Assembly (NCBI GenBank): GCA_013298215.1
Contig: JAAFKE010000010.1
Location: 1-64,000 of the forward strand
Origin: Cytophagales bacterium
Lineage (GTDB): Bacteria > Bacteroidota > Bacteroidia > Cytophagales > Spirosomataceae
Direction: 5' to 3'
Length of the DNA: 64,000 bases
Shown here: one piece after another, positions 7,958 through 28,558 of the stretch
Numbering within the stretch: position 1 is the first letter of the stretch
How the letters are laid out: every line of letters begins with the position of its first letter
Notes under the pieces: generated by a model
Told to the model about the DNA's origin: nothing
Seen by the model: the letters and a program-made list of their open reading frames with translations, nothing else
The model's database searches: none
Made by a program: the position numbers and the translations under genes

Positions 7958-8944
7958 ATGAGTATAACCGCTGCTATTACGGGTGTTTGTGGATACTTAC
8001 CCGACTACGTTTTGACCAACGCCGAGTTGGCAACCATGGTAGATACCAACGATGAGTGGATTATGTCCCGAACGGGCATTAAAGAACGCCGAATTTTGAA
8101 AGGCGAGGGAAAAGCTACCTCAGACATGGCCGTGGAGGCCGTGAAAGGGTTGCTCGAAAAAACCAATACCGACGCATCAGAAATTGACCTGTTGATCTGT
8201 GCAACGGTGACACCCGATTATTTTTTTCCCTCCACGGCAAATATCATTTGCGACAAAGTTGGGATTCCGAACATCGGTAGTTTCGACATTTTGGCTGCCT
8301 GCTCTGGATTTTTGTATGCCCTCACCACGGGGACGCAGTACATCGAAACGGGAAAATATAAAAAGGTTATTGTGGTGGGGGCCGACAAAATGTCGTCGAT
8401 CGTAGATTATACCGACCGCACAACCTGCATTTTGTTTGGCGACGGCGCAGCGGCAGTGCTGCTCGAACCCAATACCGAGGGTTTTGGTGTGATCGATTCT
8501 ATTATCGGATCCGACGGCTCGGGCGCAAAACACCTCATCATGCACGGCGGCGGGAGCCTGAACCCGCCCACCCACCAGACCGTAGATAACCGAATGCACA
8601 CTATTTTTCAGGACGGGCCGTGGGTTTTTAAGTTTGCCGTCACTAAAATGGCCGAGGTAGCCGCCCAAATAATGGAGCAAAACCACCTGACGGGCGACGA
8701 CGTGGCGTATCTTGTGCCCCACCAGGCCAACAAACGAATTATTGAAGCCACCGCCCGGCGCATGGGCGTAGGCATGGACAAAATCATGCTCAATATTCAT
8801 AAATACGGCAACACCACCGCCGCCACCATTCCGCTGTGCTTGTGGGACTACGAATCGAAACTAAAAAAAGGGGATAACCTCGTCTTTGCTGCCTTTGGTG
8901 GGGGCTTCACTTGGGGGGCCTCCTACGTAAAATGGGCATACTAA
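7958..8944 (+). CDS. fabH: Beta-ketoacyl-ACP synthase III FabH
   Basis: 328 residues; condenses acetyl-CoA with malonyl-ACP to start fatty-acid chains. The triad is complete: Cys115 in [13 protein letters not shown], His255 in [11 protein letters not shown] and Asn285 in HKYGNTTAA. The Gly-rich C-terminus ([19 protein letters not shown]) is typical. ATG 7958 opens at [21 protein letters not shown], matching other FabH starts. It follows plsX by four bases and precedes efp, a common Bacteroidota order, and depends on malonyl-CoA made with the AccB/AccC encoded downstream. Confidence 0.97.
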
Positions 8945-25290: not shown

Positions 25291-25557
25291 TTCAAGGTCT
25301 TGCAGCTTTTTATTTGTGTGAAAAACTGACATATTTCCAAGCCAACAAAACCGAGTAAAAGTACAAATATTGAGTTTAGCGTAATTCAAGCCAGGGCAAA
25401 AGTCAATGTTAGACAAAGTACAAGATAATAAGCCAATTTTGAAGTTTGTCAAGGGAGACCGTTAGCGAATCCAAACTACGCAGGCCGAATTGGAAGCCTA
25501 AAAGCTCTACCAACAGGTAAGGCTTAGCCTTTCTATTCACCAACATCACTATCACTT
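25291..25557. other. Gene-free left border of the AT-rich islet
   Basis: 267 bases without a convincing gene. A short open stretch on the plus strand, about 25.40-25.46 kb, reads ...SMLDKVQDNKPILKFVKGDR before a stop and might be a gene remnant, but nothing identifies it. AAGGCTTAGCCTT near 25520 is a short palindrome without a T-run. Composition falls from here to about 28.3 kb. Confidence 0.4.
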
Positions 25558-26112
25558 CTACTTTTGGGGTTTTGTTGCCATCACACTGTCTATTTGGCTG
25601 TATAGTTGGGTCGTGTCACTGGGTCTTTTGGCATTTCTGACGACGATATTTCCCAATCTATCCGCAATAAAATACCTTGGAATAACCACTTCGTTGTCTT
25701 TTGAACCCACTACCTGATTAAAAATAACACTATAATCTTCTAAGTTTTCAAAGGAAAGATGGTATCCCGTCATTTTTTGGGAGGCGATTAACTCCTTCCA
25801 TTTGCCCAATACTTTTTTATTGAAATTGATGGAAACGTAGAGAAAAACGAGATTATCATTGTTGGCATACCGTTCCTTGAGCGCGGGGGTATAATTTTTA
25901 AGTTCTTCTAAGCACGGCCTACAATTGGCTCCCCACATATCACCGTAAACAACTTTGCCTTTAAATTCCTTTGAAGCCAATATTTCAGTAATCGATTTTT
26001 TGTTTTTTAATACCACAATTCCTTTATTGTCAGTTACTTGCCCTTTTACCTGCAAGCTAAAAAAGGTTGTTATGATAAAAACAAATGCCTTGGTTTTGAG
26101 AAGATTATTCAT
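25558..26112 (-). CDS. TlpA-like periplasmic thioredoxin-fold protein
   Basis: 184 residues from ATG 26112. The leader is MNNLLKTKAFVFIITTFFSLQVKGQ. The thioredoxin-like domain carries the redox motif WGANCRPC (Cys64, Cys67), with the strand-helix order VVYGDMWGANCRPCLEELKNY and a cis-Pro candidate in EVVIPRYFIADRLGNIV. Such proteins reduce or relay disulfides outside the cytoplasm. The codon composition is strongly AT-rich compared with flanking housekeeping genes. Its ATG overlaps the last codons of the preceding reading frame (ending at 26105), which suggests they were once translated together. This is the only apparently intact gene of the islet. Confidence 0.8.
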   Translation of the reverse strand: MNNLLKTKAFVFIITTFFSLQVKGQVTDNKGIVVLKNKKSITEILASKEFKGKVVYGDMWGANCRPCLEELKNYTPALKERYANNDNLVFLYVSINFNKKVLGKWKELIASQKMTGYHLSFENLEDYSVIFNQVVGSKDNEVVIPRYFIADRLGNIVVRNAKRPSDTTQLYSQIDSVMATKPQK

Positions 26113-26870
26113 GTTTAGTTGGATTGGGAATACTATTTGAGACCAATCGAATTTTCCCATCACTAACAATTACGAATGTAGGATAGTATCGTGTAACTGA
26201 TCTTATAGAATCAATATCTATTGGAAATATATTGAAATTTGGTTCATAATCAAGTTTGTAATCAGCAACTACCGAAAGGTTGGTATTTGATGGGTAAAGG
26301 CCAATTATTCTCTCGTAGTTGTTCTTTTTAAATAATCTTTTAACCTCTGCTGTTACTAATTTACAGTGGTCACAATCTGGCCTAAAGATAAATATGAGAG
26401 ATTCATTATGAGAGTTCCATTTTTTAGAAATGTTGCACTTATATCAGTATTTTGAATGTATTTTATTGGTCTATAGTCATTTATAATTTCTTCGGAAGCT
26501 ACGCCAAATGATATTACACCCAAAAATAAGGCAGCTACCAGTCTGGAATTTGGTAGCCAATAAAACTGTGTGTCATTATATTTTATAAAAATCAAATCCC
26601 AAGTGCTACAATGTTTTTTATAACAGTTGAAGAGGGACTCAATTTGATCAAATCACCAAAGCAACCACAATCTTTAATATTGTAAAAGAAATAGCCGTAT
26701 AAATATATCAATGTGAATATGAGCAAAATAATAATGGATATTAGGGCCGAAATCCTAATCTTTGAGAGAAATAAGAATAAAAAACCTAACGTAATTTCTC
26801 CACCAACAATAAATGGGGATAAGAACGCTATTTGGGGATGATACAAAGATAATAAGTCTGCAAATGGTCT
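26105..26870 (-). pseudogene. Broken MauE/DoxX-like membrane domain fused to a thioredoxin domain (two frameshifts, 5' truncated)
   Basis: Three adjoining frames together spell one known domain order. Frame 1 (to 26592) has membrane segments and the KDCGCFGD motif of MauE-like redox membrane proteins (SPFIVGGEITLGFLFLF, IKNIVALGI). Frame 2 (26595 to about 26430) continues with RLVAALFLGVISFGVAS and a linker. Frame 3 (about 26450 to 26105) reads KKWNSHNESLIFIFRPDCDHCK...YYPTFVIVSDGKIRLVSN, a thioredoxin-like domain with a CDHC motif. One missing T near 26593 and one missing A in the A-run near 26422 would restore a single protein. The first membrane helix is absent. Either decay or homopolymer sequencing errors could explain the shifts; the missing start argues for decay. 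Confidence 0.7.
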
Positions 26871-26875
26871 AATTT

Positions 26876-28276
26876 TTATTTATTGTTATTCTTGTTAAAA
26901 TAATTCCCAAAGAATTTATTTTTTTCAAATTCTTTTATGTCGGCTTCTAGCATAGATCCTCGTTTAATTACAGTATTATCTTTCCAGAAATACTCATCGT
27001 ATGGAACTTCCTTAATCAAATCTAAATCGCTTCTGACAAAAGAAGATTTTAGGTTTGGAGTCATTGTTAAATTCTCGTATGAAATAATACTTATATTTTC
27101 TGTAAACTTCCGAACTCCTAAGCCGACGTAAGTCATAACCAAACTGTATTGAAAATTCGCACTTTTAAAGGAACTTTTTTTCTCTATTGATTCTTCAAAA
27201 TTTATTGTCATTTTTATTTTATTTCTTTTAAATGAAACTATGTCGAAAGATCCCTCAGAATCTTTGAGATGGTACACTCCTTCGATTTTTACAATATTAT
27301 CATACTTTGGTTTTATATATATTTTCCCTGAAAAATAGGATATTTTTGTGCTTTTAGGAATGCAACTAATGATTACTATCTCATCATCTGAGGATTCATT
27401 TATGTAGCCATCAATCGTATATCTATAGTTCATTTCAATATTTTTAGCATTATTTGGTAAATATCTATTGTTAGTTATCACCCCTGATAAATTAAAAACA
27501 AGTGCTGTTATATTTCTAAATTGATACTGAGATGGTTTTTCTGCATATCTCGCATTGGTAGGGTTCCACAACTTTAAACCAAATACTGACCATCCCCCGT
27601 CAAAAAAAATTTCGTGTATCGAATTTGTTTCACTACCCCCTTTAGCAACTTTTTGATAGAAGAACTTGCTGTATATTTTTTCTAATGAATCACCTTCAGC
27701 CTTATTGATGGCTGCATTTAAAATGAGGCTTGCTCTATTTCCAGTACTCACTTCGGCCAAATCTATTAGAGTATGTTTTGGATTTTCAAACTGTTGACAA
27801 TCAATGTTTTAATATATTTTCTTTGCAGATATTTATTTTTTTCGCTTTCAGAATTGAGTAGAAACACGCTACCGGAAAATATTTTGCATTTATCAGATTG
27901 TCAGAGGCTTAAAATTAATAGAAAAATCGTAATTTATTCATTATCAATGAGTTATAATTTCAAAACAAACTCTTATAGCCTCATTTAAATATATTGTATA
28001 AAATTTCTGTTCAGTAACTACAAACGTAGTCTTTTTGTAGGATATATGATTAAAGGATAAGTTAGAAGGTAGGTTTTCAATTTTAAATTCAAATTCCCCT
28101 ATTTCATTAGTAATTGTAGTTTTGTTAGAACCTTGTTCAATCACACTTAAAAAAGGGATTGGCTCATTAGTCCTCTTGTCAAGTACAATTCCTGAAATTA
28201 GAATACTTTTCTGGGCGTAACCGAATTTTGTTAAAAACGTTGCGACAACAAAAAATAGAATAATGTGTAGTTTCAT
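26876..28276 (-). pseudogene. Interrupted carboxypeptidase-regulatory-domain protein
   Basis: The 5' part (28276-27944) encodes a signal peptide (MKLHIILFFVVATFLTKFGYAQ) and a CarboxypepD_reg-like domain: ISGIVLDKRTNEPIPFLSV, TITNEIGEFEFKI, SFNHISYKKTTFVV. It stops after EAIRVCFEIITH. The 3' part (about 27808-26876) matches the usual later region of such Bacteroidota proteins: EIFFDGGWSVFGLKLWNPTNARYAEK, SGKIYIKPKYDNIVKIEGVYHLKD. The roughly 140 bases between have stops in all three minus frames, so I treat it as one broken gene. Two independent short genes remain possible. The sequence is very AT-rich. It precedes the MauE-thioredoxin remnant in the same direction. Confidence 0.55.
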
Positions 28277-28473
28277 TGCATTTTATTTTGCGTAAAACGA
28301 TAGAGAGTAACCCTCAAAATTCGGTTGGCCACGTAGGTAAAGATGTTGTGTCTAATCAGCAAGATTTTGAAAAAGAGCGGGAGGTTTGGAAAGCGTTAGA
28401 AAAAAGTCTGAGGGAGTTGATAGACACAAAAGATGTGGTTATTAGGATGTTGCAAGAAACCGTTGAGCGCTAA
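28276..28473 (+). pseudogene. Possible 3' remnant of a helix-turn-helix regulator gene
   Basis: The frame gives about 65 codons without an ATG near its left end. The C-terminal half, DFEKEREVWKALEKSLRELIDTKD, then VVIRMLQETVER, is a coiled-coil helix like the tails of XRE-type regulators in this phylum. No DNA-binding part is present upstream, where the sequence is the AT-rich islet. Composition here returns to that of the chromosome, so the right border of the islet probably lies close to 28.28 kb. Identification rests on one helix and is weak. Confidence 0.3.
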
Positions 28474-28558
28474 AAAAAGTCGATGAATCATAAATAATGC
28501 GTGCAACGCACCTTATTTTAAAACGAGTGTTTAACTTTACGAAAACAAACTAAAAAAT

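Follow-up and report, generated by a model that had tools for sequence, protein, structure and literature searches.

Introduction

The closest described systems to the locus reported here are the MauE and MauD proteins of methylamine utilisation, the HumE and HumF proteins of Streptomyces, the ResA and TlpA proteins, and the BT_3928 family. MauD is thioredoxin-like, and ResA and TlpA have a single membrane anchor at most. According to PMC7794033, MauE and a partner protein are needed for the maturation of methylamine dehydrogenase, help by MauE in disulfide formation is a matter of speculation, and candidate RiPP clusters were found to contain mauE homologues. MauE and MauD are there described as products of separate genes of the mau cluster, whereas the corresponding parts are fused in the family to which our locus belongs. 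HumE, a DoxX-family protein, and HumF, which has a thioredoxin (Trx) domain, were proposed as the makers of the humidimycin disulfides (PMC7168211). This pair resembles our family in combining a DoxX-family membrane protein with a Trx-domain protein, but differs from it in being encoded by separate genes.

Here we analysed a stretch of 64,000 nucleotides from a bacterium of the Cytophagales (Spirosomataceae; contig JAAFKE010000010.1 of assembly GCA_013298215.1), which we call the window. It contains MauE-like and thioredoxin-like coding sequences next to an intact TlpA gene. MauE-Trx is a known type of gene, and the copy in the window is most likely its wreck.

Results

A MauE-Trx gene spread over three reading frames

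A sequence-only reading of the window had proposed a MauE membrane domain with a CGCFGD motif, a linker and a domain with a CDHC motif, divided among three frames and followed by an overlapping TlpA gene with a CRPC motif. All of these parts were found at the locus. Within 25558-28276 on the minus strand, the order in the direction of transcription was an interrupted CarboxypepD-type gene (28276 to 26876), the MauE piece, the linker, the thioredoxin-like piece and TlpA.

The MauE membrane piece (26592-26879 including the stop, coding 26595-26879, minus strand) was defined by Pfam PF07291, by a profile of fused relatives and by alignment. Its CGCFGD motif lies at 26652-26669, and the first start codon listed in it was a TTG at 26846. 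The linker piece (about 26413-26592, minus strand) was delimited by the matched region of the read-through of the three frames, and its frame, the third, ends at 26356. The thioredoxin-like piece (26105-26443, minus strand; stop at 26105-26107, coding from 26108), defined by its reading frame and the fusion profile, holds the CDHC motif at 26363-26374. In the assembly, the three pieces occupy three different minus-strand frames.

The MauE piece matched PF07291 with an E-value of 7.4e-13 and 49.4 bits (cut-off 27), over positions 44-120 of the 128 in the model only. The window piece was thereby short of a complete MauE domain, its N-terminus with the first helix being absent, as the earlier reading had stated. 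About 31 residues including this helix were lost, counted as the 31 alignment columns of the relatives that precede the piece. A hydrophobicity scan gave two hydrophobic stretches in the MauE piece and one in the linker, the latter aligning with the last hydrophobic stretch of intact relatives. The thioredoxin-like piece matched PF00085 with an E-value of 0.0019, below the cut-off of that family. The CGC motif, the linker and the CxHC motif of a MauE-Trx protein were thus all present at the locus but in three frames instead of one, and we therefore regard the window copy as a pseudogene of the MauE-Trx group.

The fusion profile was built from 15 single-frame relatives, excluding the window copy, and compared with the 2202 six-frame segments of the window. 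Among these segments, the MauE piece matched model positions 47-126 of 293 with an E-value of 1e-20, and the thioredoxin-like piece matched positions 187-279 with an E-value of 5e-15; the best other segment had an E-value of 2. The linker piece gave no profile match of its own among the 2202 segments. Its length of about 60 codons agrees with the 60 model positions left between the two matched end pieces. The read-through aligned end to end with 14 of the single-frame relatives except for about 31 N-terminal residues, the fifteenth relative being L100. The three-frame arrangement claimed earlier was thus upheld by the frames themselves and by the profile.

Single-frame relatives

When the phylum was searched with the read-through, 16 of 395 genomes matched at E <= 1e-11, the host among them. 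The 15 matches outside the host comprised 13 single-frame MauE-Trx proteins (L057-L068 and L070) and two proteins of the BT_3928 family (L069, 371 aa; L071, 369 aa). The thioredoxin-like piece as query matched one of 60 other genomes of the family (G024), in a fused protein of 289 aa (L029). L029 was used in turn as query in the order, where at E <= 1e-16 one of 390 genomes matched (G1130; L100, 301 aa), with G024 evidently outside this draw. The read-through, at E <= 1e-15, matched one of 148 genomes of the order, which was the host itself. Its scan of genome contigs gave 66 pattern matches and 0 relatives, the scan with L029 returned one locus, on its own contig, and none of the three queries L029, TlpA and the fusion of L101 matched a plasmid. 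The search with the corrected protein that the sequence-only reading had called for, together with the related searches, thus yielded 15 single-frame fusion homologues. That reading had also named homologues with the two parts as separate genes in the same arrangement as the case that would speak against it, and none were seen in searches that favoured fusions, most of the queries being joined or fused, so that unfused relatives would be under-counted.

The 15 fusions were 289-301 aa long, and each of them contained both the CGC and the CxHC motif. A hydrophobic stretch at about residues 133-166, ahead of the Trx part, was found in 14 of them, L100 being below the scan cut; in total, five stretches were seen in 10 of the 15 and three or four in the remainder. 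Among the 14 relatives of set A1, Pfam gave MauE in all 14 and a thioredoxin family in none at E <= 0.01, and the NCBIfam ResA model matched one (best E 4.3e-5). L100 matched Thioredoxin_8 with an E-value of 0.002, below the cut-off. In the PDB, the A1 profile matched 33 positions of a TXNDC5 chain (E 0.00028) and, with its C-terminal region, three ResA chains over about 108 positions (3c73, E 0.00095; 3c71, E 0.0027; and a third, E 0.094). Judged by family models, the thioredoxin assignment is weak, and the name thioredoxin-like was chosen because of the CxHC motif and the weak similarity to these PDB chains; ResA and TlpA, unlike the fusions, are without a MauE domain. A structure predicted for the intact relative L099 (no alignment) had a mean pLDDT of 43 and was not used. 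Literature titles and abstract openings contained nothing on MauE-Trx fusions among the matches listed.

Longer MauE proteins of the BT_3928 type

When the MauE piece was used as query, 59 of 60 other genomes of the family matched, mostly in proteins that were long by their open-frame length. Against the model of the BT_3928 family (NCBIfam NF045576), the piece itself gave an E-value of 9.8e-18 and 64.4 bits, below the cut-off of 250 bits. The host carries an intact protein of this family on another contig (C63:51340-51768; L004 835-1956), which scored 333.6 bits against the same cut-off and contains CGCFG without a later CxxC. A CGCxG motif was present in all 22 longer MauE proteins compared (L004, L069, L071 and L009-L027; 362-382 aa), and a later CxxC in none; they are BT_3928-family proteins or look-alikes, NF045576 having been run on three of them (L004, L069 and L071). 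The C-terminal part of these three matched no Pfam family above cut-off, and L069 and L071 showed a weak match, below cut-off, to a model of HvfX-type RiPP maturation.

By model matches, the BT_3928 family shares the MauE domain with the window piece and with 14/14 of the A1 fusions. It differs in a length of about 362-382 aa without CxxC, and the window piece and the first A1 member score far below the family cut-off. Since the host keeps an intact BT_3928-family protein, the host could lose the window copy without necessarily losing a core function.

The overlapping TlpA gene

The TlpA/ResA-like thiol-disulfide oxidoreductase gene (25558-26112, minus strand; 184 aa) was recognised as an ORF with an intact frame and by its match to Redoxin (Pfam PF08534; E 1.6e-7, above cut-off), with the CRPC motif at 25912-25923. 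Its scores with the ResA and TlpA models were below their cut-offs, and the export signal was judged by eye. Its best matches outside the host shared 37-40% identity with it and came from a different family of the same class. The overlap described earlier was read directly from the sequence: the ATG start of TlpA (26110-26112) overlaps the end of the thioredoxin-like frame by 8 nt.

The sequence-only reading had called for a search for conserved pairs of MauE-Trx and TlpA. Such pairing was not supported: none of the 15 intact CxHC fusions had a TlpA-like ORF beside it in a phmmer search with the window TlpA, which covered flanks of mostly 1.5 kb, could miss divergent TlpA proteins and in G024 reached a contig end 544 bp past the fusion gene. 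The same search, again with flanks of mostly 1.5 kb, found such an ORF beside two of the 22 longer MauE proteins, which lack CxxC. The pairing of fusion and TlpA was thus shown by gene overlap at the window locus only.

An orphan copy of the 3' end of TlpA (its last 205-220 bp, 95-96% identical) was present on another contig of the host (C12:91224-91443; L003 about 8225-8444). It lies between a DUF2520-like ORF and a hemE-like ORF, both named by eye.

An interrupted CarboxypepD-type gene and a MITE-like element

The first gene of the operon was found in two parts on the minus strand. The 5' part (27973-28276) carries CarbopepD_reg_2 (PF13715, E 1.1e-12) and, by eye, a hydrophobic N-terminus, and the 3' part (26876-27760), whose listed TTG start is internal, is continuous with it once the insert is left out. 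Between them lies a 204-bp element (27769-27972, no strand assigned) with imperfect terminal inverted repeats and TTA/TTA flanks, delimited by its repeat copies and end patterns. Removal of 27766-27972, which is the repeat and one TTA, reduced the in-frame stops from nine to zero and gave a product of 397 aa. Over residues 27-393, the restored frame matched a host paralogue (L078) with 28% identity and an E-value of 3e-47. This paralogue (C12:164808-165704; L078 1204-2400) is intact at 398 aa, and the ORF downstream of it was named TonB-receptor-like by eye. Beyond the host, 394 genomes of the class were searched with the CarboxypepD-type gene, and five contained matches at E <= 1e-6.

Elsewhere in the genome, the 204-bp element recurs in 12 further copies that are nearly full (199-214 bp matched at 72-100% identity) and in shorter ones; the one on contig C5 shares 99.5-100% identity with it. 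Both ends were found by pattern at 10 of 13 loci, and at eight of these 10 the 3-bp flanks matched as TTA or TAA; the three loci missed by the end pattern were one with TTA/TTA, one with TTA/TAA and one with a single end. The largest listed ORF of at least 60 aa that starts inside the element is 71 aa long and extends beyond the element end. The element is therefore short, multi-copy, bounded by terminal inverted repeats and a target duplication, and too short for a transposase, which are the features of a MITE. The TTA/TAA target duplications may point to the IS5/IS1031-type group. Partial copies were also seen near the starts of contigs C33, C60 and C3. A second repeated 18-mer, GAGTATGTTTGGGATTTG, occurred at five sites (C1:276826, C12:104, C20:50475, C21:50161 and C45:139195); it matches the MITE end with two mismatches and is possibly another repeat family.

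Composition of the region

In 500-bp bins, the GC content of 25500-28499 was 28-39%, as against 42-57% before and 44-58% after this region. The AT-rich composition and the sporadic occurrence of the cassette therefore make it look imported and eroding, and the operon was probably imported. In the whole window, 55 chosen ORFs of at least 100 aa covered 92.5% of the sequence, and the sole uncovered stretch of more than 400 bp was 26170-26875. This cover is an indirect measure, as gaps may be filled by chance ORFs. A promoter scan gave 17 promoter-like sites against a mean of 15.2, which is chance level. A terminator scan gave five sites, the mean being 1.8, and no interpretation was placed on this excess.

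An intact relative in a RiPP-like cassette

In G1130 (L101 8485-13962), the intact MauE-Trx gene lies in a RiPP-like cassette, between two small ORFs that each encode two cysteines after a common LFE(V/T)EELEQRLET stretch. At E <= 0.1, neither small ORF had a match among the families of Pfam and NCBIfam. An M50 protease is encoded near the fusion; it has relatives among the daptide and epipeptide proteases and matched the daptide protease model with an E-value of 1.9e-32 and 112.9 bits, below the cut-off of 300. A further protein of the cassette, 705 aa long, is squalene-cyclase-like at its C-terminus. Beside the window cassette, no peptide gene was recognised by eye among ORFs of 60 aa or more.

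Discussion

We are confident that the three-frame stretch is a pseudogene that arose by the usual decay of a gene, and that no new mechanism is at work. The product of the ancestral gene would have consisted of a membrane domain of the MauE type, another hydrophobic stretch and, at the C-terminus, a thioredoxin-like domain with CxHC. It would have stood in the middle of an AT-rich, probably imported operon, between the genes for a CarboxypepD-type protein and TlpA. In the assembly of the host genome, the gene lacks its start and first helix and changes frame twice, and a mobile element splits the operon's first gene. The locus is accordingly not expected to give a fusion product as a single protein, and TlpA alone still looks intact. 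The intact TlpA may mean that selection is still acting on part of the operon, and this may count against the decay reading. Decay, which the sequence-only reading had suspected, is supported as the best account of the locus. Four features described here go beyond that reading: the insertion into the first operon gene, the low-GC island, the stray TlpA fragment and the host's intact protein of the BT_3928 family.

The same reading had placed the two frame shifts at short homopolymers, and this held, with short runs of T and A close to the two sites. Such positions are where assembly or sequencing errors could make a gene that is intact in the organism appear broken, and the assembly consists of 65 contigs. 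This explanation nevertheless appears improbable. The loss of the first 31 residues is not of the homopolymer-error type, a mobile element interrupts the adjacent gene, the genome is 99.97% complete, and the window has, by the indirect measure of ORF cover, a single gap of more than 400 bp. Because the N-terminus is missing, a MITE-like insert lies next door and the window is otherwise well filled, sequencing error is unlikely as the sole cause of the broken frames.

A split but working relay, its pieces translated from three frames through programmed frameshifting or internal starts, would be a very surprising outcome. Every piece is open, the last of them shares 8 nt with the start of TlpA, and the A run at the second junction fits the slippery pattern X XXY YYZ in the upstream frame by eye. 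By the same inspection, no slippery pattern precedes the TGA at the first junction, and the lost first helix would be expected to upset the topology. We rejected programmed frameshifting because every relative found (15/15) is encoded in a single frame.

That the MauE and Trx pieces were always independent small neighbouring genes is hardly credible, since, despite the separate genes described for mauE and mauD (PMC7794033) and for HumE and HumF (PMC7168211) and the preference of joined or fused queries for fusions, the linker is about as long as that of the fused relatives and includes their last hydrophobic stretch, and the lone family genome found by the Trx piece alone carries this part fused.

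Decay of a former MauE-Trx gene thus remains our reading of the window copy, and the thiol relay proposed for it earlier is plausible for its ancestor only; a conserved pairing with TlpA was not supported in the flanks searched. For the intact family, a membrane-to-periplasm thiol relay is plausible. Judged from the order of the hydrophobic stretches, the CGCFG and CxHC pairs would both face the periplasm, and the likely role would be to pass electrons between membrane and periplasmic thiols, with TlpA as a possible partner or client.

The cassette of G1130 suggests secreted peptides as the clients of the fusion there. A broader proposal would be that intact CxHC MauE-Trx is a dedicated periplasmic disulfide relay for the secreted cysteine peptides of the phylum, and that the window operon is the remains of one; we put this forward tentatively, as a rather unlikely idea.

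The low-GC island brings together several independent traces of decay, namely a lost start, two frame changes, a mobile-element insertion and a stray copy of a gene end elsewhere in the genome. The comparison also sets the sporadic CxHC MauE-Trx group apart from the widespread BT_3928-type proteins, in which CxxC was absent in 22 of 22 examined. For the CxHC group, the relative in G1130, which stands beside small cysteine peptides, provides a client that can be tested.
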